From: Granulicella sp.
GTDB lineage: Bacteria; Acidobacteriota; Terriglobia; Terriglobales; Acidobacteriaceae
DNA: 64,000 nucleotides
Direction of reading: 5' to 3'
NCBI GenBank assembly: GCA_027452215.1
Contig: DAIDGQ010000027.1
Location: forward strand, 1 to 64,000
Below, in pieces: positions 1,203 to 8,581 of this stretch (positions are counted from its first letter, which is position 1; each line of letters starts with the position of its first letter). Made by a program: the position numbers and the translations under genes. The notes under the pieces were generated by a model. That model was not told the origin of the DNA. It was given only the letters and a program-made list of their open reading frames with translations, and did not search any database.

Positions 1203-1580
1203 GTGAAACGCTATTTGCTCATCGCCCTCGGCGGAGCTCTCGGGGCCATCGCCCGCTACGTCGTTGGCGTCTTCGCCGCCGAACGATTCGGACAGCGATT
1301 TCCCGTAGGTACGCTCTCCATCAACCTCAGTGCCTGCTTCATGATCGGCTTCCTTCTTGAGTACCTCAACCGTCATACCGGCATGAGCCCGGTCTGGAGA
1401 TATGGTGTCGCCATCGGCTTCATCGGTGCCTTCTCCACCTTCTCCACCTTCGAGTGGGAGACCTGGTCGGACCTCACCAGCGGAGCCTTCTGGATTGCCA
1501 TTCTCTATGTCGCCGTCAGCTTGATCGCCGGCCTCATCGCTGTCGCGCTTGGATCGTCCACCGCGCGGTCGATCTCATAG
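1203..1580 (+). CDS. crcB: CrcB/Fluc fluoride channel
   Basis: Small membrane protein that exports fluoride as a dual-topology dimer in the inner membrane. The 125 aa protein has four hydrophobic segments, the conserved GTLSINL with Asn41, and GFIGAFSTFSTFEW (72-85) with the phenylalanine/threonine track typical of Fluc. A conserved Gly after Asn41 is Ala here. The GTG at 1203 is chosen because GAAGGGA (1188-1194) sits 8 nt upstream and the protein then starts VKRYLL like its relatives. An in-frame ATG at 1053 would add 50 unlike residues. The fluoride riboswitch upstream and the DUF190 genes downstream fit a fluoride-resistance unit. Confidence 0.93.
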   Translation: MKRYLLIALGGALGAIARYVVGVFAAERFGQRFPVGTLSINLSACFMIGFLLEYLNRHTGMSPVWRYGVAIGFIGAFSTFSTFEWETWSDLTSGAFWIAILYVAVSLIAGLIAVALGSSTARSIS

Positions 1581-1635
1581 CCTTCACACCGCATCCGACA
1601 GTGCAAGCGCACCATCGCAGTCGCAGGGAGGGGAA

Positions 1636-2358
1636 ATGCAGCAGCCAGGCAAAGCACTCAAGGTCTCCATCTACGTCGCCGATGGATCAACGCACCACGG
1701 CGTAGCCAGCGCCTCAGCGCTGCTCGACTTCCTGTTCTATCGAGGAGTCTCCGGAGCGACTGTCTTCAAAGGCGTCGCAGGATTCGGTGCAGATCATCAC
1801 CTGCATACCGCCTCCCTCGTCGATGTCTCGGATCGTCTCCCCATCAAAGTCGAGTTCATCGAAACTCCCGCCACGGTCGAGCAGCTGCTCCCCAGGCTCA
1901 AGGAGCTCTGCGGAACCGGCATGATCGAAATCCAGGAGACCACCATCGTCAAGGCCGCCAACTCCGCCTCTCCGCCTCCGCCCGTACATCACAAGGTCGA
2001 AGGCAAAGCGAAGCTGCTCCGCATCTACATCGATGAAACCGATAAGTGGCATGATAAGTCGCTCCACCAAGCCCTCGTCGAAGCTCTCCGAGCCAACGAC
2101 ATCGCAGGGGTCACCGTCTACAAAGCAATCCTCGGCTATGGCTCCGGAAAGCACGTCCATCAACGCCACGTCTTCTCCACCGGAGCCTCCCTCATGCTCA
2201 GCGTCATCGACATCGAGCCGAAGATCCGCAGCTTTCTCCCCCTCCTTGACAAGATGATGCCCAACGGCCTCGTCGTCCTCTCCGACGTCGACGTCATTAC
2301 CTACCGCCAGGGCAGCGCATCGCCGCTGGCCTTCCCCGATGAGGCACCCCATGCGTAA
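1636..2358 (+). CDS. Tandem DUF190 protein
   Basis: The 240 aa protein holds two DUF190 domains, about residues 8-108 and 120-228. Each starts KVSIYVADGSTHHG- or LLRIYIDETDKWHD-like, followed by GATVFKGVAGFG or GVTVYKAILGYG. DUF190 proteins have a ferredoxin/PII-like fold and often sit beside crcB; their role in fluoride tolerance is not established. The start at 1636 follows a strong GGGAGGGG ribosome site. An upstream ATG at 1549 lies inside the crcB tail and is rejected. The gene is probably cotranscribed with crcB (55 bp gap) and with the next gene (8 bp overlap). Confidence 0.85.
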   Translation: MQQPGKALKVSIYVADGSTHHGVASASALLDFLFYRGVSGATVFKGVAGFGADHHLHTASLVDVSDRLPIKVEFIETPATVEQLLPRLKELCGTGMIEIQETTIVKAANSASPPPPVHHKVEGKAKLLRIYIDETDKWHDKSLHQALVEALRANDIAGVTVYKAILGYGSGKHVHQRHVFSTGASLMLSVIDIEPKIRSFLPLLDKMMPNGLVVLSDVDVITYRQGSASPLAFPDEAPHA

Positions 2359-2701
2359 AGAAGAGTTCAACGCCAGGATGGTGCGCATCCACTTCAGCCA
2401 GAAAGATCAGTGGAATGGCCGGCCACTCCATGAAGCGATTCTGTCCCTCTGCATGGACCTCGGCCTCGCCGGAGCCACTGTTTATCAGGGTGTGGAGGGC
2501 TTTGGCCTCAGCGCCCACATCCATCACTCCAGCCTCTGGCCCGGCTCGAACGATCCTCCCATCATGATCACCATCATCGATCGCGAAGATCAGATCGCAA
2601 CCCTCCTTCCCCACCTCGACAAGATGGTCTCAGAGGGCGTCGTCGCCATCTCTGACGTTGAAGTGATCCGCTATCGTAACCATCTACCCTCCGCTTCGTA
2701 A
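2351..2701 (+). CDS. Single-domain DUF190 protein
   Basis: The 116 aa protein is one DUF190 domain, with VRIHFSQKDQWNGRPL at the N-terminal side, GATVYQGVEGFG, and a final DKMVSEGVVAISDVEVIRY strand. The start at 2351 overlaps the stop of the tandem DUF190 gene by 8 bp and has GATGAGG about 7 nt upstream, so translation is probably coupled. An in-frame ATG at 2339 would overlap more. It ends only 5 bp before the convergent radical SAM gene. Any function would be in the fluoride-responsive operon; the biochemical role is unknown. Confidence 0.82.
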   Translation: MRKEEFNARMVRIHFSQKDQWNGRPLHEAILSLCMDLGLAGATVYQGVEGFGLSAHIHHSSLWPGSNDPPIMITIIDREDQIATLLPHLDKMVSEGVVAISDVEVIRYRNHLPSAS

Positions 2702-2706
2702 CGTCG

Positions 2707-4107
2707 TCACATCCGTGCGCCCGCCATCACGCGAAGCACCGTGCCAAGGCTCTGCCTCGTTCGATCGCAAAACGCATAATCCATCTCCCCAATGGATCCG
2801 GTGCGAATGTAGTTGTTCCCAATGCACGCATGACAGACGAACCGCGCGTAACACGAAGAGCAATTAATATTCGTCACCCTCGTATTGGCAATAACTTCCG
2901 CCATCACATCACTCCCCAGAATCTGCCCCAGGTCGTCCGTCAATATGTTCCCCATTCTGAATCGCGTATTGCCCGCGAACATCCAGCAAGGGTAGACATC
3001 TGCATGGGCATCGACGACCAGCTGCGCCGTCCCAGCCGAGCACATCGCCGTCGTCGCAGACCTCTTCGCCAGCGCCCGCATCATCTCCTCCACACAGTTA
3101 AGCCTAGGCCCGCCAGCGGCTGCGTCTCCTTCCGCCAACTCGTCCAGAATATTGGTCGCACTCATCTCGACCGCATCCTGAAACTCCTCATCCAGCGCGG
3201 CCGAATCTGCGTCGGCTCCCCTCAGTGCATGACCCTCCGGCAGGCAGGCAACAGTGATATGCGGTGCCACCACGCCAAACTCCTCCGCAATAAAATTCAA
3301 GCGCTGCGAAACCGACAACCCGCCATCTGCCTGCGCTCCCGTCACCGTGCTCTCAATCGAAACCGACTCCGCATGTGCCTCCGCATAGCGCTTGATATTG
3401 AGAGAAACAGCATCGTAAGAACCCGTCCCATCCTTCCGAATTCTCACCAGGTCATGGGTCGCCTTCGGACCATCCACGCTAAACGTCAACTGAATCCCAA
3501 ACCTCTCGATCACCGCGTACAGGAGCTCCGAGATTCGCACCCCATTTGTAATCATTCCGAATCGCGGCGTCCTTCGCCCCAACCGCACTGCCTCCGAGAC
3601 GCAATACTCACAGCCCTCTTCGATGGCCTCTTCACTAAGAGAAGGCTCCCCGCCAATGAACATAAGGGTCTCGATCGTCTCGAAAAACTCATAGCACCGA
3701 TCGATCGCAGTCCTGATAGCCCTTCGTCCAAGACATCGCGCCGGATGCTTGAGGGCCGTCTCCTTCTCATAGCAATAGCGACACTGCAAATTGCAGTAGT
3801 TATTCACCATCAGCACGAGCTTCGGAAGAACTCTCCTTCGACCCGGCTCGCCCACTAGCGACGAACGAAACGTCTCCAACTTCGGAGCTCTCAAGACACA
3901 GTCCACCGTGGCCCGCAAAAAGCCGGCAACCCCCTCGCTCTCCATCTCCGCCTCGGCCTCGCGTGACAGCGCGGCCTTCGCGATTCGCAACCCGTCAGGG
4001 CTCAATCTCATCAGCACCAAGCGTTCGGGGCAGAACAGCAGCGGAGCATCCTGCTCTCCGAGCACCACCAGGTCGAGAGCCAGAAACTGCTCCAGCAGAG
4101 ACTTCAT
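2707..4107 (-). CDS. Radical SAM/SPASM peptide maturase (RiPP)
   Basis: The 466 aa enzyme has a radical SAM core with CNLQCRYC (C105, C109, C112) binding the SAM 4Fe-4S cluster, GGEP at 152-155, and a C-terminal SPASM region with seven cysteines (C356, C374, C416, C419, C425, C428, C447) for auxiliary clusters. This arrangement is known in peptide-modifying enzymes such as sactisynthases and anaerobic sulfatase maturases. The first 90 residues precede the core and contain a stretch that could be a PqqD-like leader-binding domain (inference). The gene just upstream encodes a 46-49 residue peptide, which makes RiPP maturation the most likely role. A strong hairpin separates the two. No sulfatase, transporter or protease is adjacent. 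Confidence 0.88.
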   Translation of the reverse strand: MKSLLEQFLALDLVVLGEQDAPLLFCPERLVLMRLSPDGLRIAKAALSREAEAEMESEGVAGFLRATVDCVLRAPKLETFRSSLVGEPGRRRVLPKLVLMVNNYCNLQCRYCYEKETALKHPARCLGRRAIRTAIDRCYEFFETIETLMFIGGEPSLSEEAIEEGCEYCVSEAVRLGRRTPRFGMITNGVRISELLYAVIERFGIQLTFSVDGPKATHDLVRIRKDGTGSYDAVSLNIKRYAEAHAESVSIESTVTGAQADGGLSVSQRLNFIAEEFGVVAPHITVACLPEGHALRGADADSAALDEEFQDAVEMSATNILDELAEGDAAAGGPRLNCVEEMMRALAKRSATTAMCSAGTAQLVVDAHADVYPCWMFAGNTRFRMGNILTDDLGQILGSDVMAEVIANTRVTNINCSSCYARFVCHACIGNNYIRTGSIGEMDYAFCDRTRQSLGTVLRVMAGARM

Positions 4108-4142
4108 TTCGTCCTTCGTCTTCCTTCAGTCGTACGCAAAAC

Positions 4143-4176
4143 GGGCAGCACGCCGCCGACTCGTCGGGTGCTGCCC
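4143..4176 (-). terminator. Hairpin between peptide gene and maturase (attenuator or partial terminator)
   Basis: A perfect 9-bp stem GGGCAGCAC/GTGCTGCCC (4143-4151 with 4168-4176), with CCGA/TCGG able to extend inside the loop. On the minus strand it follows the peptide stop codon and is followed by GTTTTGC. Such a structure could give more peptide than maturase mRNA, an expression ratio common in RiPP operons. Confidence 0.6.
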
Positions 4177-4213
4177 ATCTCAATCAACGCCGCGGGATAC
4201 CCGTTGCGCGATG

Positions 4214-4354
4214 CTAAGACGACGGAGTCTGCGTCGGAGGCGTGCACCCGGACCCCTTGCTGGCCGCCACGCCCTCCGCCATCCTGCGAAGGCTCCCCAG
4301 GTCGACCAGTTCAATCCACGGCTTAGGCTCCGCGAGTTCCTTTTCATTCGTCAT
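4214..4354 (-). CDS. Putative RiPP precursor peptide (46 aa)
   Basis: Read by hand. Translation from 4354 gives an N-terminal part rich in Glu, Lys and Pro, then PWIELVDLGSLRRMAEG, then a tail with ASKGSGCTPPTQTPSS at the C-terminus. The acidic, amphipathic front looks like a leader, and the Gly/Ser/Cys/Pro/Thr tail like a core with a single cysteine (residue 37 of 46). The ribosome site AAGGAG (4365-4370) is 10 nt from this ATG; another in-frame ATG at 4363 is only 1 nt away and would add three residues (49 aa). The maturase follows 106 bp downstream on the same strand. I do not recognise the peptide family. The gene could be missed by length cut-offs. Coding status rests on the ribosome site, the partner enzyme and composition. 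Confidence 0.72.
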   Translation of the reverse strand: MTNEKELAEPKPWIELVDLGSLRRMAEGVAASKGSGCTPPTQTPSS

Positions 4355-4587
4355 CGTTTCCATTCTCCTTCTCTCGTTGGGGCTTCCAACTGCCTCAAGG
4401 ATTGCGTCGCATCCCGCTTCAGTCTGTGACGTTCATCACCGATTTTTCGTCCCATTTCTGCCGACGCCGCTCGATCATCAATTCGTAGTCGCGAGGCACT
4501 TCCTCCACGTCGCACACGAAGTTTCTGCAGGCAGCGGTTTTGCAGGAAGCGACCCACGTCCTGTTTCATTGCGCCTCAGCCGCAAGG

Positions 4588-4603: not shown

Positions 4604-4678
4604 GCGGGAGTAGTTCAGTGGCAGAACGTCAGCTTCCCAAGCTGAATGTCGCCGGTTCGATCCCGGTCTCCCGCTCCA
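4604..4678 (+). tRNA. tRNA-Gly(CCC)
   Basis: Cloverleaf with acceptor GCGGGAG/CTCCCGC, discriminator T and encoded CCA (4676-4678). The anticodon stem TCAGC/GCTGA closes the loop TTCCCAA, giving anticodon CCC for GGG codons. The T arm GCCGGTTCGATCCCGGT is regular. Confidence 0.96.
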
Positions 4679-4744: not shown

Positions 4745-6370
4745 CTAGTTTTTCGCACTCGCTGTCTGTGTCTTCTGCTCCGTGGCCAGCGTATGATTCT
4801 CGAGCGCCAGCGCCTCCGGCATGTACGACAGCGCCTTGTTGATCTGCGGATCCCACTCGGTGATCACCTCGCTGCCCGCGGCCTGCCCAAACGACGATGT
4901 AAACAACTCCGTCTTGATCCGCGCCTTCAGCCAATCCAGGTTGTCAGCAAACTCCTTGTCCGTAAAGTCAATCTTCTGCGCCTTCAGGAAGTCCTTGAAC
5001 TGTTGCTGCAATGCATCATCGACCACCAGCTCTTTCGTCACCGTATGGTTGGAAAGATAGTGCTTGCTGAAGTCGAAGAACGCATAGTGCATCAGCATCT
5101 CATCTTGGAAATGATTGCTCTTCAGCTCCGGAATCTTCTCATCCGGAGTAATCCCTCCGCCGCCATACACCGTACGTCCCGAGTCCGTCAGCTTCACCTC
5201 TTTATTGGTGTCGTTTGCCGGAGCCGCATCGTTGCGCACATAGTAGTAGTCGTACAGCGAAACGCCGTTGTAATTCCGCTGAATCAAGCGTCCCGACGGA
5301 GTGTAATAGTGATACGTCGTCAGCGCCAGCCCGGCGTTCTCAGAGATCGGGAATACCGTCTGCACCAGGCCCTTCCCGAACGTCGTCTCGCCCACAATTA
5401 GCGCCCGATCATGATCCTGCAGAGCTCCTGAAATAATCTCCGCAGCCGACGCCGTGTTGCGATTCACCAGCACTACGATAGGGTATTTCGCATCCGACCC
5501 GCTCGGAACCGTATACACCTGATCCGGGAAAACGCCCTTCCTCGCTCGCTGCGATACGACGATCTGTCCCTTCTGCAGGAACTTGTCGCACACATTAACG
5601 GCCTCGTTCAACAGTCCGCCCGGATTGCCGCGCAGGTCGATCAGCAGCCCCTGCAGCCCGGGCCCAAACTTGTCCAGCGCCATCTGCACTTCGTGCGACG
5701 TCGTCTCCATCTCGTTCGTGATATGGATATACCCGATGCCCGGCTTGATCATGAACGCAAGGTCAACCGAGTACTGTGGAATCTCATCGCGAATCAGGTC
5801 GAACACCAACGGCTTGGCCGATCCCTCCCGCCCCATCGTCACAGACACATGCGTCCCGCGAGGTCCCTTCAACACCGCAGCCACCGCGGCCGAATCCATA
5901 TTCTCCGCCGACTTGCCATCTACCGCCATGATCACGTCCCCCGGATGAATACCCGCGCGGTACGCCGGCGTTCCTTCCTGCGGTGACACAACCACAATCT
6001 TGTTATTCTGCTGCACGATCCGCATGCCTACGCCGTAATATTTGCCGCTCTGTTCTTCGCGCATCTGCGCGTAGCTCTTCGGATCGTAGAAATTCGAGTG
6101 CGGATCCAGCACATGCAGCATGCCCGGAATCGCGCCGTCGTAGATCGCCTTGTCCACCTGGTCGGTGTTCAGCTTGTTGGCGTAGTTCTCCTCCACCAGC
6201 GCATAGACGTCCGTGAACTGCTTCATCGAGTCACGCAGCGTCGATTGGTCCGTCGCCGATTGCGCCGCCACGCCGCCGCCGATAATAGAGCCCGTGAACC
6301 CGCAGGCTGCGAGAAAGATGGTTGCTGTAAACAGCGCGCGACGAGTAGGGGAAGCCGTAGAGAAAGCCAT
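4745..6370 (-). CDS. C-terminal processing peptidase (S41A)
   Basis: Periplasmic serine protease that trims proteins from the C-terminus. The 541 aa protein has an N-terminal hydrophobic segment (residues 11-37) for export or anchoring, a PDZ domain around 113-180, and the S41 core with DLRGNPGG (245-252) and the Ser/Lys dyad S308 (NTASAAE) and K333 (FGKG). The C-terminal 140 residues resemble the extra domain of long Ctp proteins. The frame opens at 6475, but a TATACT box at 6442-6447 would place transcription after that codon, so the ATG at 6370 is preferred. No strong ribosome site is seen. It is divergent from the SurA-like gene; both act in envelope protein quality control. Confidence 0.9.
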   Translation of the reverse strand: MAFSTASPTRRALFTATIFLAACGFTGSIIGGGVAAQSATDQSTLRDSMKQFTDVYALVEENYANKLNTDQVDKAIYDGAIPGMLHVLDPHSNFYDPKSYAQMREEQSGKYYGVGMRIVQQNNKIVVVSPQEGTPAYRAGIHPGDVIMAVDGKSAENMDSAAVAAVLKGPRGTHVSVTMGREGSAKPLVFDLIRDEIPQYSVDLAFMIKPGIGYIHITNEMETTSHEVQMALDKFGPGLQGLLIDLRGNPGGLLNEAVNVCDKFLQKGQIVVSQRARKGVFPDQVYTVPSGSDAKYPIVVLVNRNTASAAEIISGALQDHDRALIVGETTFGKGLVQTVFPISENAGLALTTYHYYTPSGRLIQRNYNGVSLYDYYYVRNDAAPANDTNKEVKLTDSGRTVYGGGGITPDEKIPELKSNHFQDEMLMHYAFFDFSKHYLSNHTVTKELVVDDALQQQFKDFLKAQKIDFTDKEFADNLDWLKARIKTELFTSSFGQAAGSEVITEWDPQINKALSYMPEALALENHTLATEQKTQTASAKN

Positions 6371-6441
6371 AGGGTAGTGGTAAAACCTCGAGGTACACGG
6401 CCTGCAGATCTGCTCTATCGCAGCCGTCTCCATTTGGACGG

Positions 6442-6447
6442 AGTATA
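6442..6447 (-). promoter_or_regulatory. Putative -10 box for the ctp gene
   Basis: TATACT on the minus strand, about 70 bp before the chosen start codon. The -35 region is weak. Its position argues against the longest open frame. Confidence 0.4.
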
Positions 6448-6658
6448 GCATCGCCAGGTTAGCCTTTACCCGCATTTACTGTGCCATCCGTTGCTCCGGC
6501 GCTCTTCTCAACGGCACTCGCACGCCTCCGTGTCCCCACGGGAGCCTTTCCACGGGTAGAATGAAGTTGCCAGATAACCTCTACCCGGCCGCGCGGTCTA
6601 ATCCTCATCGGACCGCAGGGGCAGCATTCCTGCACGGGCGGTTCTGCATAAGGATCGG

Positions 6659-8581
6659 ATGACCGAGAAGCTAACACGCATCAACCTCCACGGCCGCTTC
6701 AGCACCGCGACCCGCATCGTAGCCGCCTTCGTTCTCTCCGCGGCAGCGGCCTCAGGCCCGGCTGCCTTGGCGCAGGCGCCGCAATCCAACTTTCCTACCC
6801 CCGGTGGAGCCTTTACTCCGGCGTCGAATCTGCAGCTCCCGCCCCTGCCGACCCCGCCCGCCATTACTCCCAATGGCAGCGTCGTCGAGGATGTCATTGC
6901 CCGAATCAACGACCAGATCATTACTCGAAGTGAATATGAGGCTGCGGAGGGTCAACTCCTTCAGGACGCGCGCCAACAGAACCTCTCCGAAGCTGAGCTC
7001 GAAGACCACCTGCACAATCTCCTCCGCGACATGATCGACGAGCAACTCCTCCTCTCCAAGGGCAAGGAGCTCGGCATCACCGGCGACGCCGAGACCATGC
7101 GTGAGCTCGACGACATCCGCAAGAAGAACAACCTCGCCTCCATGGAGGAGCTCGAAAAGGCCGCCGCCGCGCAGGGAGTCTCCTTCGAGGACTTCAAGCA
7201 GCACATTCGCGACCAGATCATCCGCCAGCAGGTCGTTCGCGACGAAGTCGGTCGTCACCTCAACATGACCCACGCCGATGAGCAGGCCTACTACGCCGCC
7301 CACGCCTCGGACTTTACCGTCCCGGAGCAGGTTCATCTGAGCGAGATCCTCATCCCCACGCCCGAAAACGCGTCGGAAGCCGACATCACCGCAGCTCAGG
7401 CCAAGGCCGATGCTGTTGCGGCCAAACTCAAGGCTGGTGCAAATTTTGCCGAACTTGCGAAGACCGCGTCGGGAGGCCCGAATGCTTCTACTGGAGGCGA
7501 TCTTGGTGACTGGAAGCGGGGCGCACTAGGCGACATCCTCGAAAAGGCCACCTTCTCGCTACCTGTAGGAGGTAACACTCCTCCCATCCGCACTCGACAG
7601 GGCTTCGTGATTTTGCACGTCGATGCCCACCAGGCCGCGGGCGTCCCCCCTCTTTCTAGTGTCGAGGACAAGATTCAGGAGGCGCTTTATTTCCAGGAAC
7701 TCCAGCCTGCGTTGCGAGCCTACCTGACCAAGGCCCGTGAAGATGCTTATATGGAAATCGCCAACGGTTTCGTCGATGCTGGCTCGGCCAGAAAACTATC
7801 TGCGCCAGGAGACATCGCTTACACCGCTTATAAGGCGCCAGCGGTCAAAAAGAAGATTAAGGTCAAGCAGCGTGTCGAGCAGGAGCAGGCCAATAAGGCC
7901 CAGGCCGAACTAGCCGCCGCTCGCGAGCGAGTCGCACAGAAGCAGGCTGCCAGGGCTGCCGAGGTCGAGCAGAGGTCAGGCGCCAAGAGCGTTTCAAAGC
8001 CCTATAAACCCAAGAAGACACACCGCGAAAAGATCCGTTACGGTCAGGCACCGCAGCGATCGCTGCCGTCTGGAACAACACAATCTGCGACTGTCACCTC
8101 CGTAGGTGCGCCGATCACAGGTCAGGCCCCCGGCGTCGCCATGTCCCCTACTGACTCCATCACATCCATCACCACCGGTACGGGTGTCGACGCGGATGCG
8201 GATCCGTTTGCCGCCAAGGAAGGTCCTCATAAAAAGACTCGCCTGTCGGCTCACGAGAGTGAGGCGGAAGAGGCGGCCGCCAAGGTCAAGCTAGCCAAGG
8301 CTGAGACCAAGGCCTCCACTCGTCCCATAGCTCAGACCCCGGTTGAGGACGCCACCGAGAAGCATCAGGCCGCCCCCCTCGGCCTCAACGGCGACACCAC
8401 TGTCAAGCCCAAGAAGCGTAAGCGCAAGAAGGGTGACGTCAAGGAGCGCCTCCAAGACAAGCCCAAGCCAGTTGACGCAGCGCCTAGCATCGCACCAACC
8501 GTCAATCCGGACCTCGCTGCGCCGTCCACCGCGCCGTCCACCGCGCCGTCCACTTCCTCCACGACATCACAGCCTCAGTAG
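6659..8581 (+). CDS. SurA-like periplasmic peptidyl-prolyl isomerase with long basic tail
   Basis: The 640 aa protein starts with an export signal (about residues 17-39, ending ALAQA), then a SurA N-terminal-like chaperone region starting VIARINDQIITRSEYE, and one parvulin domain (roughly 220-330) with VHLSEILI, GGDLGDWKRG and GFVILHVDA. It would help outer-membrane proteins fold. From about residue 395 the protein departs from the family: some 240 residues rich in Lys, Ala, Gln and Thr, including KPKKRKRKKGD and a TAPSTAPST repeat near the end. The ribosome site AAGGA (6649-6653) lies 5 nt before the ATG. It is divergent from ctp. Confidence 0.85.
   Translation: MTEKLTRINLHGRFSTATRIVAAFVLSAAAASGPAALAQAPQSNFPTPGGAFTPASNLQLPPLPTPPAITPNGSVVEDVIARINDQIITRSEYEAAEGQLLQDARQQNLSEAELEDHLHNLLRDMIDEQLLLSKGKELGITGDAETMRELDDIRKKNNLASMEELEKAAAAQGVSFEDFKQHIRDQIIRQQVVRDEVGRHLNMTHADEQAYYAAHASDFTVPEQVHLSEILIPTPENASEADITAAQAKADAVAAKLKAGANFAELAKTASGGPNASTGGDLGDWKRGALGDILEKATFSLPVGGNTPPIRTRQGFVILHVDAHQAAGVPPLSSVEDKIQEALYFQELQPALRAYLTKAREDAYMEIANGFVDAGSARKLSAPGDIAYTAYKAPAVKKKIKVKQRVEQEQANKAQAELAAARERVAQKQAARAAEVEQRSGAKSVSKPYKPKKTHREKIRYGQAPQRSLPSGTTQSATVTSVGAPITGQAPGVAMSPTDSITSITTGTGVDADADPFAAKEGPHKKTRLSAHESEAEEAAAKVKLAKAETKASTRPIAQTPVEDATEKHQAAPLGLNGDTTVKPKKRKRKKGDVKERLQDKPKPVDAAPSIAPTVNPDLAAPSTAPSTAPSTSSTTSQPQ
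8519..8554 (+). repeat. Tandem 12-bp repeat in the surA-like 3' end
   Basis: Three consecutive copies of GCGCCGTCCACC, the last differing in the final base. They encode APST units at the C-terminus. In-frame copy number could vary by slippage. Confidence 0.9.

Follow-up and report, generated by a model that had tools for sequence, protein, structure and literature searches.

Among the described systems nearest to the locus reported here are two radical S-adenosylmethionine (SAM)/SPASM enzymes that form thioethers in ribosomally synthesised and post-translationally modified peptides (RiPPs). CteB links Cys32 of its precursor, CteA, with a threonine; studies differ on whether this is Thr37 or Thr34, and one shows that a non-alpha carbon is used (PMC8326336). 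PapB links cysteine to aspartate or glutamate and accepts Cys-Xn-Asp with n from 0 to 6 (PMC9413430). Here we describe a locus in a 64,000-nt stretch of Granulicella sp. DNA (contig DAIDGQ010000027.1, from a genome that is 59% complete; hereafter the window), in which a short precursor peptide gene lies 106 bp upstream of the gene for a radical SAM/SPASM maturase (Table 1). The two genes, which a few related soil-dwelling acidobacteria share, represent a genuine, rare precursor/maturase group of a known kind within the radical SAM/SPASM RiPPs, for which no name was found in the literature searched, largely open-access and judged from the openings of abstracts. We propose, with a probability of roughly 0.6, that they constitute a minimal two-gene cassette, guided by a RiPP recognition element (RRE), that would form one thioether from Cys40 of the peptide.

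The initial annotation of the window had described a gene for a peptide of 46-49 residues, preceded by a ribosome site and lying upstream of a SPASM maturase with three plus seven cluster cysteines, and both open reading frames (ORFs) are as it described them. The precursor ORF encodes 49 residues when counted from the first ATG (4363), from which all residues are numbered here, and contains a second ATG at 4354. Since the Shine-Dalgarno sequence stands 10 nt from the second ATG and just 1 nt from the first, the 46-aa form, MTNEKELAEPKPWIELVDLGSLRRMAEGVAASKGSGCTPPTQTPSS, is probably the one that is made. The precursor family was not recognised there, and the peptide indeed yields no NCBIfam or Pfam match at E<=1.

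The pairing of precursor and maturase genes, which is highly probable, is carried by their joint conservation. A homologue search of genome contigs with the window locus returned three relatives: L002, from the metagenome-assembled genome (MAG) of Granulicella sp. UBA5172 (enzyme 69% identical), L003, from the Granulicella sp. bog_210 MAG (58%), and L004, from a Myxococcota MAG (31%). It had been suggested that a WIELVDLGS-like leader and an invariant cysteine be sought beside maturase homologues, and this is what both close acidobacterial relatives (2/2) display: in L002 and L003 a small ORF lies directly 5' of the enzyme gene, carries the same leader as that of the window and ends in MARCVSPCKGCGCTPPAQTPAA and MEEGIAPSKGCGCSPPTQTPAPTS, respectively. 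The three precursors share 21 invariant alignment columns and the consensus PxIExVDLGxL for the leader (P15, I17, E18, V20, D21, L22, G23 and L25 identical in 3/3) and KG[SC]GC[TS]PP[TA]QTP for the tail (K36, G37, G39, C40, P42, P43, Q45, T46 and P47 identical in 3/3). The single-cysteine tail holds for the window copy, which has GSGC and one cysteine in all, and fails for L002 and L003, which have GCGC and totals of four and two; because the window has serine where both relatives carry the first cysteine of GCGC, Cys40 is the sole invariant cysteine.

The precursor evolves under purifying selection. In three pairwise comparisons by the Nei-Gojobori method, the proportions of non-synonymous (pN) and synonymous (pS) differences were 0.17-0.21 and 0.73-0.80 for the whole precursor and 0.11-0.15 and 0.69-0.91 for the tail alone, such that, site for site, synonymous differences exceed non-synonymous ones by a factor of 3.5 to 4.4, a ratio that is a bound only, as synonymous sites are near saturation. 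An alignment search with the peptide found it in 3/28 genus genomes at E<=1.6e-31, the same three that carry the enzyme; the next match (E 0.044) is interrupted by an internal stop, and matches of E 0.044-1 were taken as chance. No match was obtained among 396 phylum genomes at E<=0.001 (0/396, in a set that lacked a positive control and in which candidates were scored in part), nor on plasmids at E<=1. The enzyme is similarly rare: an alignment search retrieved it from 3/398 family genomes at E<=1e-60, namely the window's own, that of L002 and that of L003, all of one genus. In a sample of 396 phylum genomes the only hit besides its own was one remoter enzyme (genome G727, locus L008; E 3e-51). 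A plasmid search with the maturase gave one record, a radical SAM protein of Actinomyces oris 29.0% identical, with no small precursor annotated there, and viral contigs gave four partial matches of 28-34% identity. Immediately upstream of the Myxococcota enzyme, a 72-aa ORF with GLGCGGSWS (L004 7586-7804, plus) is a possible precursor. Downstream of the remote L008 enzyme lies a gene (2626-3141, plus) for a 171-aa protein with the C-X3-C repeat CGIGCGSNCGGTCGISC and an N-terminus that, judged by eye, resembles a twin-arginine translocation (Tat) signal, possibly a candidate precursor of another kind; it is followed by a glycine-rich 109-aa ORF (3544-3873).

The enzyme class is clear. Family scores exceed the cut-offs of PF04055 Radical_SAM (47.0 bits), PF13186 SPASM (30.8) and TIGR04085 (46.3), the radical SAM site CNLQCRYC supplies C105, C109 and C112 (CX3CX2C), and seven SPASM cysteines are present (C356, C374, C416, C419, C425, C428 and C447). 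The last SPASM motif is CX2CX5CX2C in 5/5 enzymes compared and so departs from the canonical ligand spacing, CX2CX5CX3C (PMC5715301), which is one residue longer. The AlphaFold2 model of the maturase N-terminus (mean pLDDT, the predicted local distance difference test score, 78.2) has three strands followed by three helices, which is the order that defines an RRE (PMC12710340). The top matches of this domain in a fold search were the RREs of lasso-peptide B1 proteins and of CteB, so that the N-terminus is predicted to be an RRE; in such searches the absence of a match carries no evidential weight.

How, then, does the locus compare with named systems? Among the 25 best-scoring NCBIfam models, the window enzyme falls under the cut-off of every named maturase family. 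PapB, from the PapA/PapB ranthipeptide system (NF047865), is the top model for 5/5 enzymes compared, at 156 bits for the window enzyme and 154.9, 154.3, 143.4 and 166 for its relatives, that is, 143-166 of the 340 required; moreover, the window tail lacks a CX3D/E motif, and neither Asp nor Glu follows Cys40 in any of the three precursors. With the CteA/CteB system (ranthipeptide; TIGR03974, SCIFF; PDB 5wgg, 5why) the locus shares the layout of RRE, radical SAM and SPASM domains, a precursor adjoining its enzyme and a threonine available as acceptor in the tail, and, both by sequence and by Foldseek E-value, the solved protein that matches the whole enzyme best is CteB. It differs in cysteine content (one in the window precursor, four and two in its relatives, versus six in forty-five for SCIFF), in having CX2C where CX3C stands in the SPASM domain, and in its SCIFF scores of 112.8 bits (relatives 113.0, 119.4, 123.9 and 129.3) against a cut-off of 425. 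The nif11-type peptide maturase model (TIGR04064) ranks second for the window enzyme with 127.7 bits, although its cut-off is 518.7 and the window precursor belongs to no NCBIfam or Pfam family. The closest solved fold to the N-terminal domain is the lasso-peptide B1 RRE of TbiB1 (6jx3), with modest fold scores, and the LVDLGD leader motif is, as we presume, reminiscent of lasso leaders; here, however, the RRE is part of a radical SAM fusion protein and no lasso protease or cyclase was seen at the locus. Sulfatase or quinohemoprotein genes beside the maturase had been named as a finding that would speak against a RiPP, but the neighbours seen are of neither kind and the window enzyme reaches just 117.3 of 453 bits for QhpD and 81.3 of 349.45 for the anaerobic sulfatase maturase. 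On scores and neighbours these two functions are rejected, and PapB and SCIFF identities are likewise ruled out by those families' own cut-offs. The initial annotation is thus supported as correct in its observations and essentially correct in its interpretation.

For the thioether, its acceptor, the type of linkage and the biological role of the product, we infer rather than observe. The leader PxIExVDLGxL would bind the RRE at the enzyme N-terminus, the radical SAM cluster (C105/C109/C112) would cleave SAM to yield a 5'-deoxyadenosyl radical, this radical would abstract a hydrogen from a tail residue, and the Cys40 thiol, positioned at an auxiliary SPASM cluster, would bond to the carbon so exposed. 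The product would contain one intramolecular thioether ring and be lighter by 2 Da, and leader removal and any export would depend on genes located elsewhere. The maturase probably works like the thioether formers, and by this analogy one thioether from Cys40 is moderately favoured. Possible acceptors C-terminal to Cys40 in the window tail are Thr41, Thr44, Gln45 and Thr46. Of these, Gln45 and Thr46 are the same in all three precursors, whereas L003 has Ser in place of Thr41 and L002 has Ala in place of Thr44. On this pattern, and by analogy with the Cys-Thr linkage of CteA, Thr46 would be the likeliest acceptor in CTPPTQTP, a choice that nevertheless stays doubtful. More tentatively still than the cassette itself, and at somewhat below even odds, the group may form a new ranthipeptide-like subclass in Acidobacteria, with an RRE-fused SPASM enzyme, the CX2CX5CX2C motif, a single ring that joins Cys40 to Thr46 or Gln45 and spans a Pro-Pro turn, the tail consensus given above, possible control by a regulator of CRP/FNR type and no dedicated export genes at the locus. 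The locus brings to light an acidobacterial precursor/maturase family that has no name so far; with two short genes and one invariant cysteine, it offers a very simple substrate in which to follow acceptor choice by a SPASM enzyme without the usual Asp, Glu or Asn, and the natural difference between GSGC (window) and GCGC (L002, L003) is a ready test for a second ring.

Several observations weigh against the proposed thioether cassette. The RRE fold matches score only modestly, with the unrelated folds GdmN and NO66 close behind, and a single-sequence search of 250 family genomes with the maturase found only its own (1/250 at E<=1e-40). Others bear on the chemistry, and they give a substantial minority chance to a real RiPP cassette that performs a different reaction. 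This could be a thioether of sactipeptide type, at an alpha carbon, a C-C or C-O bond between residues, epimerisation or the modification of an invariant residue (Gln, Thr or Pro); Cys40 would then serve as a disulfide partner or as a metal or cluster ligand. The models that score for the window enzyme include those of DynA, FxsB, GrrM and GggB, SPASM enzymes whose chemistries are diverse; ChlB equals CteB in Z in a fold search; for the remote L008 enzyme the second-ranked model, at 130.4 bits, is that of the sactipeptide maturase GggB; and Cys40 is no more conserved than Gln45, Thr46 and three prolines. However, thioether formers supply the top-ranked models and, by E-value, the best structure, and the tail is devoid of the aromatic residue that a cyclophane would need. 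It is quite improbable that the peptide is instead an intracellularly modified cofactor precursor or regulatory protein that is not exported. PqqA and mycofactocin are peptides modified in the cell, but no cofactor-pathway gene is adjacent here, occurrence in 3/28 genus genomes is more in keeping with an accessory product than with a cofactor, and the mycofactocin maturase does not appear among the window enzyme's 25 best-scoring models and gives the L002 enzyme 50.4 of 265 bits. Finally, that the small ORF is a non-gene and the substrate is encoded elsewhere is very hard to sustain, for despite there being just three known loci in a single genus, Shine-Dalgarno sequence, start region and frame are conserved, strong peptide matches among the 28 genus genomes searched coincide with the enzyme-bearing genomes, and a chance ORF is rejected by conservation and pN/pS.

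Table 1. Positions of the cassette and of surrounding features in the window
Feature	Position	Strand	Basis or remark
Precursor peptide gene	4214..4363	minus	ORF; orthologous ORFs in L002 and L003; 3/28 genus genomes; pN < pS
Radical SAM/SPASM maturase, 466 aa	2707..4107	minus	Pfam and TIGR04085 over cut-off; relatives
Predicted RRE (enzyme residues 1-75)	3883..4107	minus	AlphaFold2 and fold search
Leader recognition segment PWIELVDLGSL, residues 15-25	4289..4321	minus	8 positions invariant in 3/3
Presumed core KGSGCTPPTQTPSS, residues 36-49, contains Cys40	4217..4258	minus	Invariant positions in 3/3
Shine-Dalgarno AAGGAG	4365..4370	minus	Read from sequence; conserved in L002 and L003
Hairpin in the precursor-maturase intergenic region	4138..4181	minus	Stem in 3/3 loci; intergenic folding z
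Conserved upstream block, putative promoter/operator	4397..4442	minus	Contains palindrome GTGATGAACGTCAC at 4426-4439
tRNA-Gly	4604..4678		Between precursor and S41/PDZ protease gene
S41/PDZ protease, next protein gene upstream of precursor	4745..6475	minus	Pfam
CrcB fluoride exporter, tandem-domain DUF190 (PII-like) and second DUF190	1206..2701	plus	Family matches

Two putative regulatory elements accompany the cassette. The hairpin has the arms GGGCAGCA...TGCTGCCC (5' arm GGGCACCA in L002), and the intergenic folding z of the three loci is -2.80, -1.94 and -3.71; as only the window copy is followed by a short run of T, it is likelier to stabilise or attenuate the RNA than to act as a full terminator. 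The palindrome of the upstream block, whose counterpart in L003 is TGTGATGAAGATCACA, we take to resemble a CRP/FNR site. GTGAN6TCAC occurs three times in the window versus 0.67 expected, a count reached in 0/100 shuffles, and a search of the window's own genome gave no second match to the block at E<=1. The distance from block to precursor is 34 bp in the window and ~630 bp in L003, where a 171-codon ORF (262-777, plus) separates them, which weakens the block as the precursor's driver there. This ORF includes ~60 residues of 3-oxoacyl-ACP synthase II (E 2.8e-08), a fragment that may be a remnant of recombination.

Genes for DUF190 proteins, CrcB, tRNA-Gly and an S41 protease were seen around the cassette, so the earlier statement that no protease is adjacent was not strictly correct: just a tRNA-Gly gene separates the S41/PDZ protease gene from the precursor. 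The protease is probably incidental, as no such ORF was seen by eye beside L002 (the L003 contig has just ~880 bp upstream), and on this ground it was also rejected as the leader peptidase. In the window as in L002 and L003, the DUF190-DUF190-CrcB block and the cassette are oriented towards each other. However, two genus genomes (G297 and G333) keep this block without the cassette, followed by a gene that looks enolase-like by eye and with no cassette remnant detectable in these stretches by blastn or tblastn. A functional tie to DUF190/CrcB is therefore rejected, the neighbours look incidental, and the cassette is accessory, occupying a site that varies. Upstream of the cassette in L002, a stretch at 7302-7475 reads by eye as a transposase end (VLDNLSTHTRKAATDWFG), which may hint at mobility.
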